Shown here: positions 3,952 to 18,190 of the stretch, piece after piece
Numbering within the stretch: position 1 is the stretch's first letter
How the letters are laid out: every line of letters begins with the position of its first letter
Origin: Halalkalicoccus sp. CG83
GTDB lineage: Archaea > Halobacteriota > Halobacteria > Halobacteriales > Halalkalicoccaceae
Direction of reading: 5' to 3'
NCBI RefSeq assembly: GCF_037081715.1
Contig: NZ_JAZDDH010000001.1
Coordinates: 1,116,001 to 1,180,000, forward strand
DNA: 64,000 bases
Program-made: the position numbers and the translations under genes
Notes under the pieces: model-generated
What the model saw: the letters and a program-made list of their open reading frames with translations, nothing else
The model's database searches: none
Told to the model about the DNA's origin: nothing

Positions 3952-6657
3952 ATGGATGACGAGCTGCACAACCGCAGCGTCAATCAGGACGTCCGGGAGT
4001 TGGGGGCGATGGTCGGCGATACGATCCACGCCCAGGCCTCCCGGAACGACTTCGAGACAGTAGAGACCCTGCGAACCGCGTCGATCGCCTACCGCGACGG
4101 CGAGGCGGACTCCAGGGAGGGACTGCACCAGATCCTCGATCGACTCACCCCCGAGCGCGAGAGCATCGTCGCCCGCGGGTTCACCACCTACTTCGAGCTG
4201 ATCAACCTCGCCGAGGAGCGAGAACGGGTACGATCGATCCGAAGCGCCTCCCAGGAACGGACCCTCGGCGACAGCCTCGAGGTCGCTGCGGAAGCGCTCG
4301 CCGAGGAGGACCGCCACACCGCGGAGCGGATCCTCGAGGACGTTCTCATCGAGCCGACGTTCACCGCCCACCCCACCGAGGCCCGCCGAAAGACCGTCAA
4401 GTCGAAGCTTCGCTCGGTCGCGCTCGACCTGGAGACGCTCGACGAGCGGACGCTCACGAGAAAGGAGACCGGCCACATCGAGCGAAACATCGAGAGCGAG
4501 GTCGTCAGCCTCTGGCAGACGCCACAGGTCAGGTATCGCCGACCCGGGCCGTCCGATGAGGCGCGAAACGTTCAGTGGTACCTCGAGAACACTATCTTCG
4601 ACGTCGTCGGCGAGGTCTACGACGAGTTCGAGACCGCGCTCGAGGAGGCGGGCCACTCGATCGACGTCCCCAAGCTGTTCGAGTTCCGCTCGTGGGCCGG
4701 CTCGGACCGCGACGGCAACCCCTACGTCACCCCCGAGGTCACCGCGGAGACGCTCGAGCGCCAGCGTCGCGTCGTCCTCGATCGCTACCGGGACGCGCTC
4801 AAGCGCCTCTCGGGCGTGCTCAGCCAGGACGGCAGCCGAATCAGCGTGGGAGAGGCCTTCGAGAAGTCGCTCGCCGCCGACCGCGAACGCCTACCCGAGG
4901 TCGCCCGCGTGACCGAGGAGCGCTACCCGCGCGAGCCCTACCGCCAGAAGCTGAAACTGATGCGCGAGCGGATCAACCGGATCGACGACGTCCGCCCCGG
5001 CGGCTACGAGGACCCCGACGAGTTCCGCGCCGACCTCGACGTCATCGCCGAAAGCGCCCGGAACAACGGCGCCGAGAGCGTCGTCTCGGCCCACGTCGAC
5101 CCGTTGCGCCGACAGGTCGACACGTTCGGCTTCTCGCTCGCGAGCCTCGACCTGCGCGACCACCAGAAGAACCACACCGAGGCGGTCGCGGAAGCGCTCG
5201 CGCTCGAGGGGATCGACTACCGCGAACTCTCGGAGGAGGAGCGCGCCGAGACGCTCACCGAGGCGATCCTGCAGGACGAACGGGTGATCGACCCCGGTAC
5301 GCTGTATCGCGACGAGGAGGCGGAGCTCTCGGAGACCGCCCGGACGGTGCTCGAACTGTTCGCCCGGCTCGCCGACTGGCAGGCCGAGTACGGCGACGAT
5401 GCCATCGACACCTACGCCATCTCGATGACCGAGGAGCCGAGCCACGTCCTCGAGGTGCTCTTCCTCGCCGAACAGGCCGGCGTCATCGCGCTGCCGGATC
5501 ACGCCGGGATCGACGTCGTCCCCCTGCTCGAAACCGAGTACGCCCTCTCGGGCGCTCGCCGAATCATGGGCGAGCTGTTCGAGAACCCCGCCTACAGCCG
5601 GGCGCTCGAGGCCCGCGGCAACACCCAGGAGATCATGCTCGGCTACTCCGACTCGAACAAGGAGAACGGCTTCCTGGCGGCGAACTGGTCGCTCTATCAC
5701 AACCAGCGCCGCCTCGCCGAGATCACCGACGACTTCGACGTGACGATGCGGCTGTTTCACGGTCGCGGCGGTTCGATCTCGCGGGGAGGCGGGCCGATGA
5801 ACGAGGCGCTGCTCGCGCTGCCCAACGAGTCCGTCTCGGGACAGGTGAAGTTCACCGAACAGGGCGAGGCGATCGCCGAGAAGTACGCAAACCCCCGGAT
5901 CGCCGAGCGGAACGTCGAGCAGATGGTCAACGCGCAGGTCCGCTCGCGTCGGAAGGCGATCCACGAGCCCGAGGAGGCGGTCGAGGAGGAGTGGGTCGAG
6001 GCGATGGGAACGATGGCCGACGCCGCCCGCGAGGAGTACCGCGACCTGCTCGAGAGCGAGGGTTTCGTCCGCTACTTCGAGCAGGCGACGCCGATCACGG
6101 TGATCGAGGAGCTCAACCTCGGCTCGCGACCCGCCTCGCGCAGCGGCCAACGGACCGTCGAGGACTTGCGAGCGATCCCGTGGGTGTTCTCGTGGACCCA
6201 GTCACGGTGCATCATCACGGGCTGGTACGCGCTCGCATCGGGGATCGACGCCTACCTCGAGGAGGGAGACGTCGAGACGCTCCAAGAGATGTACGACGAG
6301 TGGCCCTTCTTCCGGACCACGCTGGACAACGCCGGGCTCGCGCTCGCGCGAACGGAGATGGAGATCGCCGCCGAGTACGCCGGGCTCGCGGAGGCCTCGC
6401 TGCGCGAGACGTTCTTCCCCCGCCTCAACGACGAGTACGACCGGGCGGTCGAGCTCGTGACCGAGATCACCGGCCGCGAGGGGTTGGTCCGCCGGGAGTG
6501 GCTCGAGGAGAGCCTCGAGCGGCGAAACCCCTACGTGGATCCGCTGAACCTGTTGCAGACCCACCTCCTGGGACAGACCCATCGGACCGACGCCGAGGAG
6601 CGGACCCTCCGACTCACGGTCAAGGGAATCGCCGCCGGGATGAAGAACACGGGGTGA
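3952..6657 (+). CDS. ppc: Phosphoenolpyruvate carboxylase
   Basis: 901 aa, full length. It adds bicarbonate to phosphoenolpyruvate to make oxaloacetate, refilling the TCA cycle. Visible signatures: the catalytic His at residue 140 in EPTFTAHPTEARRK; the FRSWAGSDRDGNP motif; GYSDSNKENGF; the HGRGGSISRGGG glycine loop from about residue 603; FTEQGEAI; and the conserved C-terminal NTG that ends at the active site. A TATA-like TTTACC near 3923 sits about 29 nt ahead of the ATG, consistent with a leaderless message. The gene is monocistronic here. Confidence 0.97.
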   Translation: MDDELHNRSVNQDVRELGAMVGDTIHAQASRNDFETVETLRTASIAYRDGEADSREGLHQILDRLTPERESIVARGFTTYFELINLAEERERVRSIRSASQERTLGDSLEVAAEALAEEDRHTAERILEDVLIEPTFTAHPTEARRKTVKSKLRSVALDLETLDERTLTRKETGHIERNIESEVVSLWQTPQVRYRRPGPSDEARNVQWYLENTIFDVVGEVYDEFETALEEAGHSIDVPKLFEFRSWAGSDRDGNPYVTPEVTAETLERQRRVVLDRYRDALKRLSGVLSQDGSRISVGEAFEKSLAADRERLPEVARVTEERYPREPYRQKLKLMRERINRIDDVRPGGYEDPDEFRADLDVIAESARNNGAESVVSAHVDPLRRQVDTFGFSLASLDLRDHQKNHTEAVAEALALEGIDYRELSEEERAETLTEAILQDERVIDPGTLYRDEEAELSETARTVLELFARLADWQAEYGDDAIDTYAISMTEEPSHVLEVLFLAEQAGVIALPDHAGIDVVPLLETEYALSGARRIMGELFENPAYSRALEARGNTQEIMLGYSDSNKENGFLAANWSLYHNQRRLAEITDDFDVTMRLFHGRGGSISRGGGPMNEALLALPNESVSGQVKFTEQGEAIAEKYANPRIAERNVEQMVNAQVRSRRKAIHEPEEAVEEEWVEAMGTMADAAREEYRDLLESEGFVRYFEQATPITVIEELNLGSRPASRSGQRTVEDLRAIPWVFSWTQSRCIITGWYALASGIDAYLEEGDVETLQEMYDEWPFFRTTLDNAGLALARTEMEIAAEYAGLAEASLRETFFPRLNDEYDRAVELVTEITGREGLVRREWLEESLERRNPYVDPLNLLQTHLLGQTHRTDAEERTLRLTVKGIAAGMKNTG

Positions 6658-6818: not shown

Positions 6819-7532
6819 TCAGTAGGTGAGCCGAAGCCCGTCGAGCCACGGATCCGTGGCGTTCGTCACCCAGTCGACCAGGCCGACGGCCTGGCGGATC
6901 GTCATGAAGTTGTAGGCGTCGTTCCAGGGAAACTCGATGTCGTAGCCCGCGCTGCCCTCCTCGTGGTACACGGCGGCCAGTCCCTGGTGGATCCCGCGGA
7001 CCTCATCGAACGTCTGATCGCGGACGTCCCGGAGGTCCGAGTCGCGCGCGCGCCACTTCTCCTCGTGGACCCGATCGAGCACCGTCTCCAGACAGGTCTG
7101 ACCGTCCGAGACGGCCTCCGGCAGAAACGCCCTGGGCTGGCCGAACTCGCTCATCGCGAAGAAGACGAGGTGACCGTCGAACTCGTCCTGGCGCTCGCGG
7201 AGGACCGAACGGATCGCCTCCTCGTCCAGGTTCGGGCGATAGGTCCGGCGGAGTTCCAGCTGTCGGGCGACGAGCTGGAGATACCGTTCGTTCGGGTCGC
7301 TCGCGTCGGCCCACGGCTGGCTCGGCTCCTCGCAGGCCAGGTGGGACTCGCCGCTCGACTCGCCGTCGAACGGGAGACGATCGCCGTCGCCGCCGAGCGG
7401 TCCGCCGGCGAGCGCGCCGACCGTTCCCGCGGCGGTGGTCGCCGCGAGTCCGCCGGCGACCAGACCGGCCCCACGAAGCAGCCGCCTCCGCGTCGGGGTC
7501 CCGTCGCTCGCATCGGCGTTACCGTCGTTCAT
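6819..7532 (-). CDS. Tat-exported protein of unknown function
   Basis: 237 aa. The N-terminus has a twin-arginine motif (TRRRLLRGAG) followed by an Ala/Gly-rich hydrophobic stretch, so the protein is probably exported folded. The mature part is acidic, with YLQLVARQLELRRTYRPNLDEEAIRSVL and a Trp/Tyr-rich C-terminus (WVTNATDPWLDGLRLTY); I do not recognise the domain. It is divergent from the large multicopper oxidase across a 338-nt gap, and Tat export of a cofactor protein next to a copper enzyme is suggestive only. A TATATA box lies 26-31 nt upstream. Confidence 0.75.
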   Translation of the reverse strand: MNDGNADASDGTPTRRRLLRGAGLVAGGLAATTAAGTVGALAGGPLGGDGDRLPFDGESSGESHLACEEPSQPWADASDPNERYLQLVARQLELRRTYRPNLDEEAIRSVLRERQDEFDGHLVFFAMSEFGQPRAFLPEAVSDGQTCLETVLDRVHEEKWRARDSDLRDVRDQTFDEVRGIHQGLAAVYHEEGSAGYDIEFPWNDAYNFMTIRQAVGLVDWVTNATDPWLDGLRLTY

Positions 7533-7557
7533 CGCCCGTCGCTACGGAACTCCACGG

Positions 7558-7563
7558 TATATA
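7558..7563 (-). promoter_or_regulatory. TATA box of the Tat-exported protein gene
   Basis: TATATA read on the minus strand. A start site about 31 nt downstream falls on the ATG ending at 7532, so the message should be leaderless. Confidence 0.6.
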
Positions 7564-7870
7564 GTTGACCACATTCGTGTGTAATTAATCGCGAAGATGG
7601 TCGCGACTCGACTGATTCGGCGTCGAAGCGGACCGAATCGGAGAGCATCGGCTAGTGGCCGACCCTCGGACCCTCTCCTACTGCAGACGCTTCGGTATCG
7701 CTCGGTGTCCGAAGGCTAGACCACATCTAGTAGTGAGATGATAATTCTCATTTGATTACTGTTTTCCCTCCCTAAGCCACGAATCTCCGCTTCGAATCGG
7801 CCGGTAGTGATCGTGGAAATCTGGGATTTAGGGTCTAGAGAGTCCCCATACGCCGGACGAAGGCGGGCGA
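7564..7870. promoter_or_regulatory. Divergent intergenic region ahead of the multicopper oxidase
   Basis: This 307-nt stretch has no credible gene. Around 7715-7765 it is AT-rich and contains small inverted repeats (CTAGA...TCTAG and GAGATGATAATTCTC-type). No clear TATA box sits 25-35 nt ahead of the GTG at 7871. The oxidase frame is open only back to a TAG at 7829-7831. Confidence 0.35.
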
Positions 7871-10800
7871 GTGCGCGAGTTCACGGTGCACGCGATCGAC
7901 GTGGATATCGTCTACAACGCCTTCGGCCAGCACCAGCCCAACGGCGTGATGTACGTCCTTGAGGAGAACAGGGAGGCTGCATGCCGTGCATCAGGGTGTA
8001 CGCCCGGGGAAGCCGACGTCGACACATCAGTGATCGAACCGCTAGTCATTCGCGCCAACCGAGGCGATATCGTCGAGATCGAGTTCCACAACGACCTCGA
8101 TCGCCAGGCGTCGATGCACCAGTTCGGTCTCCCCTACGAGGTCAACGAATCCGACGGGATGGCCGTCGGCTACAACGATGACACCACCGTCCCACCGGGT
8201 GAGTCGATCACCTATCGCTGGTACGCGGACGACCAAGGAACGCATTTCTTCAGCGATAACGCGAACCCTGCGATCTTCAGCGATCCCGAGGAACGGTTCG
8301 ACGACAACAACCTCCATACGCGCGGGCTGTTCGGCGCGATCGTCGTCGAGTCGCCCGATGCCGACTGGCGGGATCCCGAAACCGGTGAGGAGCTGCGAAG
8401 CGGCACGAAGGCCGACATCATCGAGCCCGACGGCGTGAGTCACCGCGAGTTCATCGTCTGCTATCACGACTCGATCGACGTCGTCAATGCCGATGGTAGC
8501 GAGCCGACGTGGCCCGGAACCGATACCCCACAGCACATTCACGCGATCAACTACCGCGCGGAACCGACCAGCGCCCGTCTCCAGGACGCGGCGGAAGAAA
8601 CCTTCTACAGCTCGTGGGTCCACGGCGATCCCGGCGGCGGCGATACCGTCTTTCCCTGCTATACCGGTGATCCCGTCAAGATGGTCGTCGTCGGCGCACA
8701 GGTCGAGGAGAACCACGTCCACCACCTCCACGGCCACCGCTGGAAGACGATCCCCGGTGAAACCGAGTCCGACACCATCGACTCCCAGACCATCGGCCCG
8801 GCATCGGCGTGGGAGGCCAGGCTCACCATCGCGCACGGATCCGGCTCCATCTCGCCGGATACCGAGTTCGACGAGGCCTTCGAAGTCGGGGCGGGCAACG
8901 GCGAGGACACGGGAGACTACCTGTTCCACTGCCATATGTTCCCCCACTACGGCGAGGGGATGAACGCGATCATGCGCGTACTCGATAAGGAACGCGACGA
9001 TCTCCAGACGCTGCCCAACAGCGACCCGCCGCTCGACGCCGACTCGGAGATCGCGGGGTTCCCCGAGTTCATCCCCGGCGAGGACGGTGAACTCCCGCCC
9101 AAGCCACCGGGATCGCAGGAGGAGGGTCGTGATCCCACGCCCGAGGAGGCCGAGGCGCTCGGCGACGTCGTCCCCGGCGCCCCCTACGACGATCCCTGCG
9201 ATCCCGAAGAGTACGATCCGGAGGTGCTCGGCGAGACCCGCGAGTACACGATCGTCGCGCTCCCGGCGAACGTCGTCTACAACGACGCTGGTGACCACGA
9301 TCCCGAGGGGAAGGTGTACGTATTGGAGGAGGACGCCGAGGCGGTCCGCAACGGCGAGATGAACCCCGAGCCGTTGGTGATCCGCGCCAACGTCGGCGAT
9401 TGCGTTGAGATCACCCTGAAAAACGAGCTCGAACGCGGGAAGGGAGTCCACCCCCACTTCGTCGATTTCGACCCGCTGGGATCGGACTCGGCGAACGTCG
9501 GCTACAACTACGATCAGGGTACCGACCCTGGCGAGGAGATGCAGTACCGTTGGTTCGCCAACGAGGAAGGGACGATCTTCTTCCACGACCACATCACCGG
9601 AATTCCGGAAGCCCAGAACGGGCTGTTCGCGGCGATCATCATCGAACCCGCCGACTCGACGTGGCACGATCCCCACACGGGTGAGGAGATCCGAAGCGGC
9701 ACGCAAGCGATCATCGATCCCGCAGACGAGCCCGCGTTCCGCGAGTTCGCGCTGCTCTATCACGACTTCGCGCCGCTCCGGAACCGCGACGGCGAGTTCA
9801 TCAACCAGCAGGTAGAACACAACCAGAACGCGGGCTTGGGCGCGATCAACTACCGGACCGCTCCCTATTTCCGCCGTAACGACGAGGGGAACGATCCGGC
9901 GTACGTCCACAGCTCGCGGCTGCACGGCGACCCGCCCACGCCGCTACTGGAGGCGTATTCCGGTGATCCAATCCGGCTTCGGGTGCTCCAGGGTCCCTAC
10001 GAGGAGCAGCACAACTTCGGGATTCACGGCCTCCGTGGCCAGCCCGACGGGCTTCAACGCGCCGAAACGACCTCCCAGATCATCGGTCCCTCGGAAGCGT
10101 TCACCTTCGAACTCCTCGAGGCGGACACCAGGATCGACGAACTTCCGAACCCCGATGGCCTGCCGATCTGGGATCACCTCTATGGCTCGGAGATCGTTCA
10201 GGACCTCTGGGAGGGGATGTGGGGGATCTTCCGGCTGTTCGGAAGCGAGGTCGACCATCTCCAGGCGCTTCCGGATCGAAACGCCCCCCGCGGGACGATT
10301 AGCCGAAAGGAGCTCGAGAAGATGGGCCATCCCGCCCCGTTCTCGGACTGGACCAAGCGGGGCCACAAGGACAAGCTGCTCTACGAGGAGGACGACAGTC
10401 GGTGCTACCCGCCGGACAGGGACGAACGCCAGAACGACAGTATCGGCGAACGTCCGCCCGAGTCCGTCGAACCGGGCGAGCCCTGTCCCGCGGGGACGCC
10501 CACACGGACGTACGACGTCACCGCCATTCAAACGGAGATCGAGTACAACGACTACGGCGATCACGACCCCCACGGCATCGTCTTCGTGCTCGACGAGGAG
10601 GTCGAGACGGTGCAGAACGGCGAGAACCCCGAACCGCTGACGATTCGGGCCAACGCCGGCGAGTGCATCGAGATCAATCTCACTAACGCGCTGGGCGACC
10701 TCGATGAGGATCACGCCCATCCGACGTTCGACATCGAACCCGACGCCGACTGGCAGCGCTCCCAGCGCATCTCGCTGAAGCCCCAGAACCTCCTGTTCGA

Positions 10801-11752
10801 CGACCAGGGGTCGGCCGGATCGGCGGTCGGGTTCAATTTCGATTCGACGGTCGCGCCCGGCGAAACGCGGACCTATCGGTGGTTCGCGGATCCCGCACCG
10901 ACGACCAATGGCGAGGTAGACGACGGCCAGCAGGCGCGCTCGCTCGGAACGGCGATAATCTCGGACTTCGCGGACGTGCCCAGCAACCGCCACCACGGCG
11001 CGTTCGGCAACCTGATCATCGAACCGACGGGATCGGCGTGGCTCGATCCCGAGACGGGCGAACCAGTGCGAAACGGAACTCGAGCGATAATCACAAACCA
11101 TGATGGTGAGGACTTCCGGGAGTTCGCGCTGATGTTCACGGAGGGCATGTTCATCGTCAACGATGACGAGGGCGTTTGTCCGATTCCGCGTGTTGGACTC
11201 GGCGAAGAGGGAGACGATGACATCGCGGACGTGCCCTGCAACCAGATCGGCGAGCAGGAGGATCAGGGGTTCCAAGGGATCAACTACCGCTCGGAGCCGT
11301 TCGCCCACCGGTTCGCGAACGACGAACGCCAGCACAAGGTCTACAGCTCGGAGGTACACGGCGATCCGAACACACCGCTGCTGCGCGCCTACACGGACGA
11401 CCCGGTGATGCTTCGCGTGAGCCAGCCTGCAGACCGGGGTAACGGAATCTCGTTCCACCTGGCGGGCCACCAGTGGCGACGTAACAACGTCCCGCAGGCG
11501 CGACTGGTCGGTACGCAATCCGACATCTCGACAGGGAAGGCTCACGAACTCCCCTTGGAGGGCGGTGCGGACGGAGTCGGCGACTACATCTATCAGGAAC
11601 GGAAGCTGGGACAGTACCTCGAGGGGGGACTCTGGGGAATCTTTCGGGTTCGGGACGGGCCGGCCGACTGCGAGGAGCCGATCCTTCCGCTTCCCGACCG
11701 AGAGAGCGAGTACGAACAGGAGGAGGGCCACCGGAAGGCGGCTCTCGACTGA
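7871..11752 (+). CDS. Very large multicopper oxidase, three tandem two-cupredoxin units (MnxG-like size)
   Basis: 1293 aa. Three homologous units of about 400-450 aa start near residues 1, 455 and 877, each opening with a (R)EFTVHAIDVDIVYN-type strand and each containing two cupredoxin domains. Copper ligands are split between units. Unit 1 ends with an intact type 1/trinuclear pair, H282-V-H-H-L-H-G-H289 and H353-C354-H355-x3-H359-x4-M364. Unit 2 begins with H527-P-H529 and H572-D-H574. The equivalent sites elsewhere are degenerate (SDN in unit 1; no HCH in units 2 or 3). The C-terminal-type motifs therefore precede the N-terminal-type motifs. Size and domain count resemble ceruloplasmin and the MnxG manganese oxidases. 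No signal peptide is visible at the GTG start, and the frame is closed 40 nt upstream. The family is certain; the substrate is unknown. Confidence 0.9.
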   Translation: MREFTVHAIDVDIVYNAFGQHQPNGVMYVLEENREAACRASGCTPGEADVDTSVIEPLVIRANRGDIVEIEFHNDLDRQASMHQFGLPYEVNESDGMAVGYNDDTTVPPGESITYRWYADDQGTHFFSDNANPAIFSDPEERFDDNNLHTRGLFGAIVVESPDADWRDPETGEELRSGTKADIIEPDGVSHREFIVCYHDSIDVVNADGSEPTWPGTDTPQHIHAINYRAEPTSARLQDAAEETFYSSWVHGDPGGGDTVFPCYTGDPVKMVVVGAQVEENHVHHLHGHRWKTIPGETESDTIDSQTIGPASAWEARLTIAHGSGSISPDTEFDEAFEVGAGNGEDTGDYLFHCHMFPHYGEGMNAIMRVLDKERDDLQTLPNSDPPLDADSEIAGFPEFIPGEDGELPPKPPGSQEEGRDPTPEEAEALGDVVPGAPYDDPCDPEEYDPEVLGETREYTIVALPANVVYNDAGDHDPEGKVYVLEEDAEAVRNGEMNPEPLVIRANVGDCVEITLKNELERGKGVHPHFVDFDPLGSDSANVGYNYDQGTDPGEEMQYRWFANEEGTIFFHDHITGIPEAQNGLFAAIIIEPADSTWHDPHTGEEIRSGTQAIIDPADEPAFREFALLYHDFAPLRNRDGEFINQQVEHNQNAGLGAINYRTAPYFRRNDEGNDPAYVHSSRLHGDPPTPLLEAYSGDPIRLRVLQGPYEEQHNFGIHGLRGQPDGLQRAETTSQIIGPSEAFTFELLEADTRIDELPNPDGLPIWDHLYGSEIVQDLWEGMWGIFRLFGSEVDHLQALPDRNAPRGTISRKELEKMGHPAPFSDWTKRGHKDKLLYEEDDSRCYPPDRDERQNDSIGERPPESVEPGEPCPAGTPTRTYDVTAIQTEIEYNDYGDHDPHGIVFVLDEEVETVQNGENPEPLTIRANAGECIEINLTNALGDLDEDHAHPTFDIEPDADWQRSQRISLKPQNLLFDDQGSAGSAVGFNFDSTVAPGETRTYRWFADPAPTTNGEVDDGQQARSLGTAIISDFADVPSNRHHGAFGNLIIEPTGSAWLDPETGEPVRNGTRAIITNHDGEDFREFALMFTEGMFIVNDDEGVCPIPRVGLGEEGDDDIADVPCNQIGEQEDQGFQGINYRSEPFAHRFANDERQHKVYSSEVHGDPNTPLLRAYTDDPVMLRVSQPADRGNGISFHLAGHQWRRNNVPQARLVGTQSDISTGKAHELPLEGGADGVGDYIYQERKLGQYLEGGLWGIFRVRDGPADCEEPILPLPDRESEYEQEEGHRKAALD

Positions 11753-11913: not shown

Positions 11914-12411
11914 GTGAAGCGCGTCGAGGTCCACCCCGGTCGCGAGGCGATCGTCGAGTTCGATCCCGGCCTTACCTTCGAATGCGTCGACGACTGCACC
12001 TGGTGCTGCCAGCACGGCGTGTTGCTCTACGAGGAGGACTTCGCGAACCTCGCCGACTACGCCGACCTCGCGGAGACGACCACATCCTTTCGCGGCGAGG
12101 AGTTCGTCCGCCGCGAGGGGAAGGATCGGGAGGAGCACGTCGACGAGGACGGCGCGGCCTGCTACTTCCTCCGCGATGACGGACTCTGTGCACTACACGC
12201 GGAACACGGCTGGAAACCGACCCGGTGTTCGATCTTCCCGCTCGCGGTGCGGAAACGCGACGGCGATCTCCGCGTCGACGTTCGCGAGAGCGCCCGCGAA
12301 CACTGCGAGGGACTCGACGTGAGCGAACGCCGGCTGATCGACAACCTCGAGGCCTTCCTCCCCGAACTGCTCTGGGAGCTCGACGACCCCGACACCCGCC
12401 GGGAGCTGTGA
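11914..12411 (+). CDS. YkgJ-family cysteine-cluster protein
   Basis: 165 aa from a GTG start. The N-terminal C-x3-C-x2-CC cluster (CVDDCTWCC) and a later C-x-L-H...TRCSIFPL motif are the metal-chelating signature of YkgJ/UPF0153 proteins, thought to bind zinc or iron. The role is unknown; relatives often sit with flagellar or modification genes, but here the neighbours are a multicopper oxidase and carotenoid genes. The C-terminal EHCEGLDV...RRLIDNLEAFLPELLWE is typical of haloarchaeal members. Confidence 0.85.
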   Translation: MKRVEVHPGREAIVEFDPGLTFECVDDCTWCCQHGVLLYEEDFANLADYADLAETTTSFRGEEFVRREGKDREEHVDEDGAACYFLRDDGLCALHAEHGWKPTRCSIFPLAVRKRDGDLRVDVRESAREHCEGLDVSERRLIDNLEAFLPELLWELDDPDTRREL

Positions 12412-12840: not shown

Positions 12841-14379
12841 ATGAAGCTGTCCGAGCAGTCGGTCGCGGTGATCGGGAGCGGGTTCGGCGGACTCTCGACG
12901 GCGTGCTACCTCGCGGACGCCGGCGCGGACGTCCACGTCCTCGAGAAGAACGAGTCGCTCGGCGGCCGTGCCTCTCGTCTCGAGTCCGACGGCTTCAGAT
13001 TCGACATGGGGCCGTCGTGGTATCTGATGCCCGACGTCTTCGAGCGGTTCTTCGACGAGTTCGGACGCTCGCCCGACGACTACTACGGCACCGAACGACT
13101 CGATCCTCACTACCGGATCTTCTTCAAAGGTAACGAGGGCCCACGACCCTCGCGTTCGACCGAGGACATCGAGGCGCGGCCCGACGGCGACCGGGTCGAC
13201 GTCTCGTCGGACCTCGAGTCGACGAAGGAGACGTTCGAGGCTTACGAGGACGGGGCCGGCGAGGCCCTCGAGCGCTACCTGGAGAAGAGCGAACTCAACT
13301 ACGAGGTCGGCATGGAGCACTTCGTCTACGAGGACCGCCCCCGGTTCCGAGACTGGGTCGACCTCGACGTGCTCCGCAACGCCCGCGGGCTCTCACTGAT
13401 CGGCTCGATGCAGGACCACGTCGAGGACTACTTCGAACACCCGAAGCTCCAGCAGATCATGCAGTACACGCTGGTGTTCCTGGGAGGGTCGCCGAACAAC
13501 ACCCCCGCGCTCTACAACCTGATGAGCCACGTCGACTTCAACCTCGGCGTCTACTACCCCGAAGGAGGTATCGGCGGCGTGGTCGACGGCATCGCCGAAC
13601 TCGGCGAGGAGCTCGGCGTGACCTACCATACGGACCAGCCCGTCGAGGCCATCGAGGGTCGCGCGGGCGGGTTCAAAGTCGAGGCCCGCGATACGTTCCT
13701 TCCGGATCTGGTCGTCTCGGACGCGGATTACGCCCACACCGAACTCGATCTCCTACCGTCCGAGAAACGACAGTACAGCGAGGAGTACTGGGAGTCGCGC
13801 ACCTACGCCCCCTCCGCCTTTCTCCTCTACCTCGGCGTCGAGGGCGACGTCGACCCGCTCGCCCACCACACGCTCGTTCTCCCGCCGGACTGGGAGGAGC
13901 ACTTCTCGCAGATCTTCGACGAGCCCGAGTGGCCCGAGGATCCCGCCTACTACCTGTGTGTGCCGAGCGAGACCGACGACGAGGTGGCTCCCGAGGGCCA
14001 CAGCAACCTGTTCGCACTCGTCCCGGTCGCACCCGGCCTCGAGGACACCCCCGAGATCCGCGAGCGCTACCGCGACCTCGTTCTCGACGACGTCGCCGAA
14101 CACACGGACGTCGAACTCAGGGATCGGATCGTCTTCGAGGAACGCTTCACGATCGACGACTTCGCCGAACGCTACAACAGCATGCACGGCAGCGCGCTAG
14201 GACTCGCTCACACGCTGGATCAGACCGCCGTGTTCCGCCCGCCGCACCGCTCGAAGGCGGTCGACGGGCTCTACTTCACCGGCTCGTACACCACGCCGGG
14301 GATCGGGGTGCCGATGTGCCTGATCAGCGGCCAACTGACCGCCGAGGCGGTCATGCAAGACCACCGACCGCAGGAATGA
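12841..14379 (+). CDS. crtD: Carotenoid desaturase of the CrtI/CrtD family (probable carotenoid 3,4-desaturase)
   Basis: 512 aa. The N-terminal dinucleotide-binding fold is clear (VAVIGSGFGGLSTA, residues 8-21; then LEKNESLGGRAS), and the C-terminus carries the FAD-contacting GLYFTGSYTTPGIGVPMCLISG signature of phytoene desaturase-type enzymes. The following gene overlaps by four bases and is the bisanhydrobacterioruberin elongase, with cruF beyond; in Haloarcula and Haloferax the desaturase in this position is CrtD, which acts at C-3,4 in C50 carotenoid synthesis. A phytoene-desaturase role (CrtI) cannot be excluded from sequence alone. Confidence 0.85.
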   Translation: MKLSEQSVAVIGSGFGGLSTACYLADAGADVHVLEKNESLGGRASRLESDGFRFDMGPSWYLMPDVFERFFDEFGRSPDDYYGTERLDPHYRIFFKGNEGPRPSRSTEDIEARPDGDRVDVSSDLESTKETFEAYEDGAGEALERYLEKSELNYEVGMEHFVYEDRPRFRDWVDLDVLRNARGLSLIGSMQDHVEDYFEHPKLQQIMQYTLVFLGGSPNNTPALYNLMSHVDFNLGVYYPEGGIGGVVDGIAELGEELGVTYHTDQPVEAIEGRAGGFKVEARDTFLPDLVVSDADYAHTELDLLPSEKRQYSEEYWESRTYAPSAFLLYLGVEGDVDPLAHHTLVLPPDWEEHFSQIFDEPEWPEDPAYYLCVPSETDDEVAPEGHSNLFALVPVAPGLEDTPEIRERYRDLVLDDVAEHTDVELRDRIVFEERFTIDDFAERYNSMHGSALGLAHTLDQTAVFRPPHRSKAVDGLYFTGSYTTPGIGVPMCLISGQLTAEAVMQDHRPQE

Positions 14380-15209
14380 ACCGGGCGGCGTACCTGCTGA
14401 AGCTCTCGCGTCCACGCTTCTGGATCTACCTGGCCGGGCCGGTGCTCGTCGGGGCGGTCTTCGGCGCCTCCTCCCCCCTCGATCTGCTCTCGGCGCCGAT
14501 CCTCGCCCTGTTCGCCTTCTTCCTCCTGCCGGCGAACGTCCTGATCTATGGCGTCAACGACGTCTTCGACGCCGACGTCGACCGGGCGAACCCGAAGAAG
14601 GACGATCGCGAGGCGAGATATACGGGTCAACGGTCCGTCGTGGTCGCGGTCGTCGCGAGCGGCCTGCTCGGCCTCGCGCTCGTCCCGTTGCTCCCGGCGG
14701 GCGCGCTGGTCTGGATCGCCGCGTTCTACACGTTGGGGATCGGCTACAGCACCCCACCAGCCCGCTTCAAGACCACTCCCGTGCTCGACTCGATCTCCAA
14801 CGGGCTCTACTTCACCCCGGGTGCGGCGGCCTACGTCGCCCTCGCAGGGAGCCAGCCGCCGGCCCTCGCCGTCGTCGGCGCGTGGTTCTGGACGATGGGG
14901 ATGCACACCTTCTCCGCGATCCCCGACATCGAGCCCGACCGCGAGGCGGGGATCCGCACGACCGCCACGGTGCTCGGCGAACGCCGGACCTACGCCTACT
15001 GTCTCGCGTGCTGGGCGCTCGCGGCGCTCGCGTTCGGCGCGCTCGACGTTCGGCTGGGCGCACTCTTCCTGGTGTATCCGGCGCTCGTCGCCGCGATCGC
15101 CACCGCGACTGTCGACGTCTCGCGCGCATATTGGTGGTTCCCCGCGATCAACTCCGTCGTCGGCGCGCTGTTCACCATGGGCGGGCTCTGGACGCTGGTC
15201 TACGGCTAG
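14376..15209 (+). CDS. lyeJ: Lycopene elongase / 1,2-hydratase-type UbiA prenyltransferase (bacterioruberin pathway)
   Basis: 277 aa with multiple membrane segments. The two aspartate-rich prenyl-diphosphate motifs of UbiA enzymes are present: N61-DVFDADVD and D184-IEPDREAG. The start ATGA overlaps the crtD stop, so the two are translationally coupled. In haloarchaea this enzyme adds C5 units to lycopene ends on the way to bisanhydrobacterioruberin. Gene order next to crtD and cruF supports the specific assignment over a quinone prenyltransferase. Confidence 0.88.
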   Translation: MNRAAYLLKLSRPRFWIYLAGPVLVGAVFGASSPLDLLSAPILALFAFFLLPANVLIYGVNDVFDADVDRANPKKDDREARYTGQRSVVVAVVASGLLGLALVPLLPAGALVWIAAFYTLGIGYSTPPARFKTTPVLDSISNGLYFTPGAAAYVALAGSQPPALAVVGAWFWTMGMHTFSAIPDIEPDREAGIRTTATVLGERRTYAYCLACWALAALAFGALDVRLGALFLVYPALVAAIATATVDVSRAYWWFPAINSVVGALFTMGGLWTLVYG

Positions 15210-15307
15210 GTCCTGCCGTAGAGCGACGTCCTCGGACGTGGTCGGTTCACGCGATTCGAACCGACCGCTTACGTGGGACAACGGACGCACGAAAAGCGAT
15301 CGGTCCG

Positions 15308-16144
15308 TTACTTCGGCCCACTGACGAACGTGAGTACCTCGGCGACGAAGCGTTCCGGCGCGGTGAGCATCGCCTCGTGTCCGTGTCCATCGAGGGTGAC
15401 GAGCCGGCTGTTCGGAAGTGCATCGTGGACCGCCATTGTCGCATCTCTCAAGAAGGGAGGACTCTCGCTTCCGGACAACAACAAGGTCCGCGTCGTCATC
15501 TCCGTGAATCGTGCAGCGTCGAACTCGTACTCGCCGATCGCCTGCACGCTGCGGGGCCAGACGTGGGCCGCGTCCACGAGGTCCTGCCAGTCCGGCGCCG
15601 AGCGTTGCGCGTCGATCTCCTCCGGCGTTGATTGGGCTATCTCTCGTAGAAACAGCACGAGGACCCGTTCGTTCTCGCCGTCGTCCAGCAGCCGCTTCAT
15701 TTCGGCGAGTACGTCCTCGTCGTAGAGTTCGTGGTCGCCGACCGGAATCGGGGGTTCGTACAGGACGAGTTCGTGTAGATCGTCGGTCCGCAGCGCCGCC
15801 TCCAGGGACAAGAGTGCCCCGGAGGAATGTCCGAGCAGCGTCACCGGCTCGTCGATCGACTCGACGACCGCGGCCACGTCCTCGAACTCCCGTTCCAGTT
15901 CGTACGCGGCGGCGTCATCGCCGCTCCCGCCGACGCCACGATAATCCATCGCGTACACCGTGTACCGTTCTGCGAACGTGGAACGGACGTCCGAGAGGTC
16001 CCAGAACCTGTGGTCACAGGCACCCCCGTGGACGAGGACGAGCGGTGGCCCGCTTCCCGTTCTCTCGAACGCGATCGCCGTGCCGTCAGCGGACGTGACC
16101 GTCTCTAGTTCCGTACTCGTGTCTGATGATCTCGTTTTGGCCAT
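15308..16144 (-). CDS. Alpha/beta hydrolase inserted between lyeJ and cruF
   Basis: 278 aa from the ATG at 16144; an in-frame ATG at 16183 would add 13 residues. It has the oxyanion HGGACDHRFW motif, the nucleophile Ser107 in GHSSG, an Asp in LLLSGSESP and a C-terminal GHGHEAM with the catalytic His. The substrate is unknown. It lies on the opposite strand to the carotenoid genes that flank it, splitting a gene trio that is normally contiguous, so it looks inserted. Its first 30 codons resemble the N-terminal leader of the MBL-fold gene near 24.0 kb. Confidence 0.88.
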   Translation of the reverse strand: MAKTRSSDTSTELETVTSADGTAIAFERTGSGPPLVLVHGGACDHRFWDLSDVRSTFAERYTVYAMDYRGVGGSGDDAAAYELEREFEDVAAVVESIDEPVTLLGHSSGALLSLEAALRTDDLHELVLYEPPIPVGDHELYDEDVLAEMKRLLDDGENERVLVLFLREIAQSTPEEIDAQRSAPDWQDLVDAAHVWPRSVQAIGEYEFDAARFTEMTTRTLLLSGSESPPFLRDATMAVHDALPNSRLVTLDGHGHEAMLTAPERFVAEVLTFVSGPK

Positions 16145-16398
16145 GGGATCTCGACGTCGTTCCTCTATGAGATACGGTAGCATGGAGTCATCTCGTGAAA
16201 GATCCGCACGGCCTGCACGGAGAGCGACGGGCTACGAGTCGGCCAGTGGTGAGCGATATCCTCGATGGGACACGACACGACCTCGCACTCGGACACCCGT
16301 CTCGTGACCCGCTCGAAAGAGGGACCGACCGGGGCGAAACGGGTGGGCTAAGTGATCGTCGCCCGAACGTCCGCCGATGACGACCGACGGTGAGCCGT

Positions 16399-17226
16399 AT
16401 GAGTGAGACCGTCGTCGCTCTCCCGACCCGTCGTCGGGTCGAGTCCACCCTCGAACGGGTCGTCGAGAACAACCGGTTCACGATCGCCGTCACCTTCCCG
16501 CTCGTGGGGGTAGCGATGCTGATCGCCGGACGGGAAGGGTTGCTCCCTCCCGAGTTCGCGATGCATCCCTACCTGTTGATCGGCGCGAACCTCGTGATGG
16601 TCTCGCCGCTGGTGGCGGGGATCGCCCCCCTCGTCGACCGGCGTGCGCTCTCGGGGCTCGCGTTCCTCGCGTTGTTCACCTGGGCGATCGAGACGGCGGG
16701 CGTGCTCACCGGACTGCCCTACGGCGAGTTCTCCTACGGGATCGCGCTCGGGCCGATGCTGTTGGATCTCGTGCCGCTCGGTCTGCCCGTCTTCTACTTC
16801 CCGATCCTGCTCAACAGCTACCTGCTCGCGCTGCTCTTCCTCCGGACTCGCTCCCTCCCGCGGCGTTTCGGGCTCACGCTGGCGCTCGTGCTGACGCTGG
16901 ATCTGATCCTCGATCCCGGCGCGGTCGCGCTCGGCTTCTGGGCGTGGGTCGACCCCGGTCCGTACTACGGCGTACCCGCGATCAACTACCTCGGCTGGCT
17001 GCTCAGCGGATCGGTCGCCATCGCGATCCTCCAGCTCTCGTTCGACCACGGGGCGATGCTGAAACGTCTCGACTCCTGTGGCTTCTTCCTCGATGACCTG
17101 GTGAGCTTCCTCGTCCTGTGGGGACTCGTGAACGCCTACTTCGGGAACTGGATCCCCGTCGCGCTGGCGGTCGGACTCGTGGTCACGTTGGTGCGTAGCG
17201 ACTGGTTCGACTTCGACGTGCTCTGA
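16399..17226 (+). CDS. cruF: Bisanhydrobacterioruberin hydratase CruF
   Basis: 275 aa, about seven hydrophobic segments. The DUF422/CruF signatures are visible: TWAIETAGVLTGLPYGEFSYG, LNSYLLALLF and LDPGAVALGFWAWVDPGPYYGVPAINYLGWL. The enzyme adds water to the C-1',2' double bonds of bisanhydrobacterioruberin to give bacterioruberin, the red C50 membrane pigment of haloarchaea. A GTG nine bases upstream (16390) is an alternative start. It is separated from lyeJ by the hydrolase, and crtB converges on it with 13 nt between the stops. Confidence 0.9.
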   Translation: MSETVVALPTRRRVESTLERVVENNRFTIAVTFPLVGVAMLIAGREGLLPPEFAMHPYLLIGANLVMVSPLVAGIAPLVDRRALSGLAFLALFTWAIETAGVLTGLPYGEFSYGIALGPMLLDLVPLGLPVFYFPILLNSYLLALLFLRTRSLPRRFGLTLALVLTLDLILDPGAVALGFWAWVDPGPYYGVPAINYLGWLLSGSVAIAILQLSFDHGAMLKRLDSCGFFLDDLVSFLVLWGLVNAYFGNWIPVALAVGLVVTLVRSDWFDFDVL

Positions 17227-17239
17227 GAACGGGACGCCC

Positions 17240-18190
17240 TCACCGGGCCGGGAGACTCTCGTGGTGCGGGGCTCGTGACGGACTCCGCGCTCCGCCGACG
17301 GCGCTCACCCGGCGGAACACCTCCTCCGGGTCGTTGCTCCACTGCCAGCGCCAGCGCGTTCTGACGACCAGCGAGAGCTTTCGAAGCGTCCCCAGTTCGG
17401 GCTCCTGGTTGAGCACGTCGTAGCCGCAGTTCCGGATCAGACGGTGGTGCTCGGCGTAGAGCACCGCCGCTAGCAACACGGGGAGCTGGCAGTCCTCGGG
17501 GAGGTACTTGATGCCGGCGACGCCCTCGCGGTAGAGCCGTTCGGTACGGGCGAGCTCCGCCTGCATGACGGCGGCGAAGTTCTCGTCCATCTCGAAGCGC
17601 TCGATCTGCTCGGCCGTGACGCCGTGTTCCGCGAGCGTCGTCTCCGGGAGATAGATCCGGTCGCGCTCGATGACGTCCTCGCGGACGTCGCGCAGGAAGT
17701 TCGTCAGTTGAAACGCCTCGCCGAGCGCCTTCGCGTGGGAACGGGCGGTCTCGGGGTCGTCGGGGTCCATCACGGCGGTCATCATCGAGGCGACGGCGAC
17801 CGCCGAACCGCCCATGTAGGCCTCGAGTTCCTCGTAGTTCCGGTAGCGACGTTTCCCGATGTCGGTCGCCATCGCGTCGATGAACTCCTCGACGGTCGCG
17901 TCGTCGATCCCGTTCTCGGCCCGCACCTCCTGGAACGCGGCCAGGACGGGGCTCTCCGGTTCGACCTCGCCGAGCGCCTCCGCGCGAAGCTCCTCGAGCC
18001 GACGACGCTGTTGCTCGGAGCTCACGCCGTCGGCGTCGTCTACGACCTCGTCCGCGACGCGGAAGAACGCGTACAGGACGTAGGTCGCGTTCCGAACGCG
18101 ATCCGGCAGCAGCCTCGTCGCGTAGTAGAACGTCCGTCCGGTTCGTCGATGGATCGCCTTGCTCTTCGTGATGTTGTCTTGTTCTACCAT
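17240..18190 (-). CDS. crtB: Phytoene synthase
   Basis: 316 aa. It condenses two geranylgeranyl diphosphates to phytoene, the first committed carotenoid step. Both Asp-rich magnesium motifs are intact: D47-EVVD51 and D168-VRED172 (FQLTNFLRDVRED). Other family signatures, YAFFRVADEVVD and RIYLPETTLAEHGV, are clear. Transcribed towards cruF, it completes the local set of bacterioruberin genes apart from the lycopene-forming desaturase and a GGPP synthase. Confidence 0.95.
   Translation of the reverse strand: MVEQDNITKSKAIHRRTGRTFYYATRLLPDRVRNATYVLYAFFRVADEVVDDADGVSSEQQRRRLEELRAEALGEVEPESPVLAAFQEVRAENGIDDATVEEFIDAMATDIGKRRYRNYEELEAYMGGSAVAVASMMTAVMDPDDPETARSHAKALGEAFQLTNFLRDVREDVIERDRIYLPETTLAEHGVTAEQIERFEMDENFAAVMQAELARTERLYREGVAGIKYLPEDCQLPVLLAAVLYAEHHRLIRNCGYDVLNQEPELGTLRKLSLVVRTRWRWQWSNDPEEVFRRVSAVGGARSPSRAPHHESLPAR

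Follow-up and report, generated by a model that had tools for sequence, protein, structure and literature searches.

A probably displaced, leaderless MnxG-type multicopper oxidase gene in Halalkalicoccus sp. CG83

Within a 64,000-nucleotide stretch of Halalkalicoccus sp. CG83 (hereafter, the window), one open reading frame encodes a chain of six cupredoxin domains whose copper motifs stand in the reverse of the order found in laccases. This raises the question of whether the protein represents a new architecture or a member of a known oxidase family, and whether the gene, at its present chromosomal site, can still yield a working enzyme.

Copper motifs and family of the protein

The gene is an intact open reading frame with a GTG start and 1293 codons, and the gene, its units and its copper motifs are located as follows.

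7871..11752, + strand: gene for an MnxG-type six-domain multicopper oxidase, leaderless; intact open reading frame matching MnxG in sequence and fold
7871..9235, + strand: unit 1 (domains 1-2, residues about 1-455), from the internal repeat alignment
8714..8737, + strand: motif C, residues 282-289, invariant in 29 sequences
8927..8962, + strand: motif D, residues 353-364, invariant in 29 sequences
9236..10498, + strand: unit 2 (domains 3-4, residues about 456-876), from the internal repeat alignment
9449..9457, + strand: motif A, H527-P-H529, both histidines invariant in 29 sequences
9584..9592, + strand: motif B, H572-D-H574, invariant in 29 sequences
10499..11749, + strand: unit 3 (domains 5-6, residues about 877-1293), copper sites all decayed

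An internal repeat alignment divides the chain, as a preliminary description of this DNA had proposed, into three two-domain units, which are mutually 36-40% identical. Within unit 1, domain 2 bears the type 1 copper together with one half of the trinuclear ligand set. By homology to the enzyme class, motif C (H282-x2-H285-x-H287) supplies H282 to the type 1 site and H285 and H287 to the trinuclear site, and motif D (H353-C354-H355-x3-H359-x4-M364) contributes H353 and H355 to the trinuclear site and C354, H359 and M364 to the type 1 site. Motifs A and B, in domain 3 of unit 2, supply the remaining half. All twelve residues of this split set, which the preliminary description had already picked out, are observed in the gene. 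They are invariant in 29 of 29 aligned sequences (the window protein, 27 haloarchaeal homologs and one Bacillota MnxG), so that the motif pattern is not attributable to chance. The matching sites elsewhere, namely motifs A and B in units 1 and 3 and motifs C and D in units 2 and 3, had been described as decayed, and were so in all eight sequences compared. Pfam matches were confined to Cu-oxidase_3 and Cu-oxidase_2.

The likeness to MnxG suggested earlier was borne out by both sequence and fold. The best match among solved structures was MnxG (9bxa), over its full length and with E=7.8e-204, and the third unit of the window protein was best matched by MnxG residues 813-1221, which is the third unit of MnxG. 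An AlphaFold2 model of residues 1-1200, built from 29 input sequences, had a mean pLDDT of 81.5 and a pTM of 0.82, with a poorly modelled loop at 290-344 between motifs C and D. Foldseek ranked 9bxa (the Mnx H340A complex of Bacillus sp. PL-12) first with a query-normalised TM-score of 0.82; the other matches listed had TM-scores of at most 0.50 and were led by coagulation factors and ceruloplasmin. The score against NCBIfam NF041487 (copper_ox_MnxG), at 227.6 bits, lay below the curated cut-off of 3100 bits. Assignment to the MnxG type is based on the full-length match to MnxG in sequence and fold, together with trinuclear ligands split over domains 2 and 3 and type 1 ligands in domain 2 only. 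By homology to 9bxa, the twelve ligands are expected to meet in one cluster at the domain 2/3 boundary.

The motif order C, D, A, B does differ from that of three-domain laccases, in which A and B come first and C and D last; a laccase of this type was rejected on that ground, and a ceruloplasmin type was rejected by motif order and site placement, the trinuclear sites of domains 1 and 6 being decayed here. The difference from laccases might be taken to favour a previously unknown architecture with permuted copper motifs. However, the same order is present in Bacillus MnxG, in homologs from Bacillota, Nonomuraea, Microvirga and Hymenobacter, and in the literature. In all of the six-domain bacterial oxidases analysed by Vasin et al. 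(2013, PMC3600357), the trinuclear site lies between domains 2 and 3 and type 1 copper is found in domain 2 only, with residual ligands elsewhere, and the MnxG-like cluster in that study includes proteins of Halorubrum lacusprofundi and Haloterrigena turkmenica. This site placement, taken with the 9bxa match, means that the motif order is normal for MnxG-type proteins, and it supports the domain 2/3 location of the trinuclear site that had been suggested for the window protein. A new architecture therefore has practically no probability and was rejected: the permuted order is real, but it is a family trait that has already been published and is no peculiarity of this protein. The window protein is very probably a haloarchaeal-branch MnxG-type oxidase with one catalytic unit left, encoded by a displaced and leaderless gene copy.

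Chromosomal site and missing export leader

The surroundings of the gene comprise two neighbours and an upstream stretch.

6819..7532, - strand: left neighbour, divergent gene with a Tat-like leader, adjoining the right neighbour in three related genomes (G029, G073, G065)
7533..7870, no strand: upstream stretch lacking the Tat leader and start codon seen in the four closest orthologs
11914..12411, + strand: right neighbour, CxxCxxCC-family gene, next to the left neighbour in the same three genomes

In these three genomes the two neighbours lie 143-175 bp apart, and the genes outside the flanking pair, at 3952-6657 and 12841-14379 in the window, are also conserved. Since the flanking genes are adjacent in relatives, the simplest reading of this gene order is that the oxidase gene would have been inserted between them in the window lineage. 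A search for mobile-element ends around the insert revealed weak short repeats only and no clear element end. An apparent carotenoid cluster adjoins the insertion at 12841-18190, consisting of a CrtI-type desaturase gene followed by open reading frames that, by eye, are prenyltransferase-like, membrane and phytoene-synthase-like.

The closest orthologs, four genes with 77-81% nucleotide identity, all carry an RR-E-F-M Tat-type leader, and the lack of this export signal in the window protein was absent from the earlier observations. Homology to these orthologs starts behind their leader: the first matching position is 7850-7853 with three orthologs and 7886 with the remaining one. Among haloarchaeal homologs, as judged by pattern and by eye, a Tat leader is present in 26 of 28, and the two lacking it form a sister pair (L037 and L060). 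A frameshifted leader upstream was ruled out, as a search of about 600 nt in three frames found none. The presence of a leader in all four closest orthologs could be held to indicate an assembly error that conceals a normal gene with an exported product. This is improbable: going upstream, the sequence leads directly into the gene that lies beside this site in relatives, and a search of the rest of the genome yielded no copy of the leader.

In a three-way comparison with L036 as outgroup, the window branch had a dN of 0.079, a dS of 0.42 and an omega of about 0.19, and omega was about 0.15 on the L042 branch. The reading frame remains open and under constraint, which is evidence against prolonged decay; as judged from these substitution rates, constraint has prevailed during most of its history. 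Bacillus MnxG begins at about the same residue without an added leader, so that an enzyme of this type without a leader is conceivable. Lacking a Tat leader, the window protein should remain in the cytoplasm. The window copy is probably displaced, leaderless and either cytoplasmic or decaying; it may be inactive or have only begun to decay. What is new here is the chromosomal site of this copy and the loss of its export signal, and these are the only local surprise.

Haloarchaeal relatives

Homologs were detected (E<=1e-10) in 25 of the 392 genomes of the order, in 16 of its 95 genera, and several are plasmid-borne, including one on plasmid 1 of Halalkalicoccus jeotgali. With few bacteria sampled in the tree, the haloarchaeal sequences join Bacillota MnxG and one actinobacterial sequence with a support of 0.994. 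N-terminal extra regions of about 270-320 residues are present in four homologs (L044, L046, L047, L038), and C-terminal extensions of about 90-300 residues, often beginning GVPxSDxG...AGAxYxF, occur in most other haloarchaeal homologs; both are absent from the Halalkalicoccus copies. Frame changes disrupt some homologs: in L059 (genome G239) the leader plus the initial 46 residues fall in a different frame, and in L041/L068 (genome G202) the gene is split into two open reading frames.

The genome of the window also retains part of a second mnxG-type gene as a remnant (L066:5325-6008; G000:C1, about 2570366-2570959), which matches residues 1077-1276 with 53% identity. Near this remnant are two CHRD-domain-like genes and, by eye, a DtxR-like regulator and a ferritin-like open reading frame. 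In the mnxG neighbourhoods compared, CHRD-domain-like genes also recur no more than a few kb away from the haloarchaeal homolog, at L043, L045, L055, L101, L040, L064 and L036.

Proposed mechanism and comparison with known systems

In multicopper oxidases, electrons enter at the type 1 copper and O2 is reduced at the trinuclear cluster. In the window protein, the six cupredoxin domains form three repeated pairs with one surviving catalytic unit, whose copper-site geometry is predicted by homology to Bacillus MnxG. Electrons from the substrate would enter at the type 1 copper of domain 2 (H282, C354, H359, M364) and pass via H353-C354-H355 to a trinuclear cluster shared by domain 2 (H285, H287, H353, H355) and domain 3 (H527, H529, H572, H574), where O2 would be reduced to water. 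This copy is probably displaced and lacks the 5' part encoding the Tat signal; the enzyme, if made, should be cytoplasmic.

A metal such as Mn(II) would be the first candidate substrate. In Bacillus, all of mnxEFG is required for activity (PMC5622069). Queries for MnxE and MnxF, taken from a Lysinibacillus operon and confirmed against 9bxa, gave no convincing match in 11 haloarchaeal genomes; as both are needed in Bacillus, we can only infer Mn(II) oxidation here. Kinship with MnxG, retention of every ligand and a constrained frame are consistent with a working Mn(II) oxidase that this organism exports and that acts alone or with unknown partners, but the absence of a Tat leader from any upstream frame and of MnxE/MnxF matches from those 11 genomes makes this unlikely. 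There is equally slight probability that haloarchaeal MnxG proteins are Mn(II) oxidases working without MnxE and MnxF, the leaderless form being active inside the cell; if true, this would amount to a simpler form of manganese oxidase in archaea. Since MnxG relatives are scattered in Halobacteria without MnxE/MnxF, partly on plasmids, a haloarchaeon could serve to test manganese oxidation by MnxG alone.

Among known systems, MnxG of Bacillus sp. PL-12 resembles the window protein in its six domains, full-length match, motif order, decayed third unit and core N-terminal start, but is partnered by MnxE3F3 (PMC5622069), for which no MnxE/MnxF counterpart was found in the haloarchaeal genomes searched. 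The haloarchaeal proteins Hlac_1576, Htur_3146 and the H. jeotgali plasmid copy (78% identical to the window protein over the chain) belong to the same family and share its ligand set. Unlike the window protein, the H. jeotgali copy and most other haloarchaeal homologs have a Tat leader, and many haloarchaeal homologs have a C-terminal extension. Ceruloplasmin-type oxidases likewise have six domains and one trinuclear site and are a weaker fold match (TM-score up to 0.50), but their trinuclear site lies between domains 1 and 6, and domains 2, 4 and 6 each have a type 1 site (PMC3600357).
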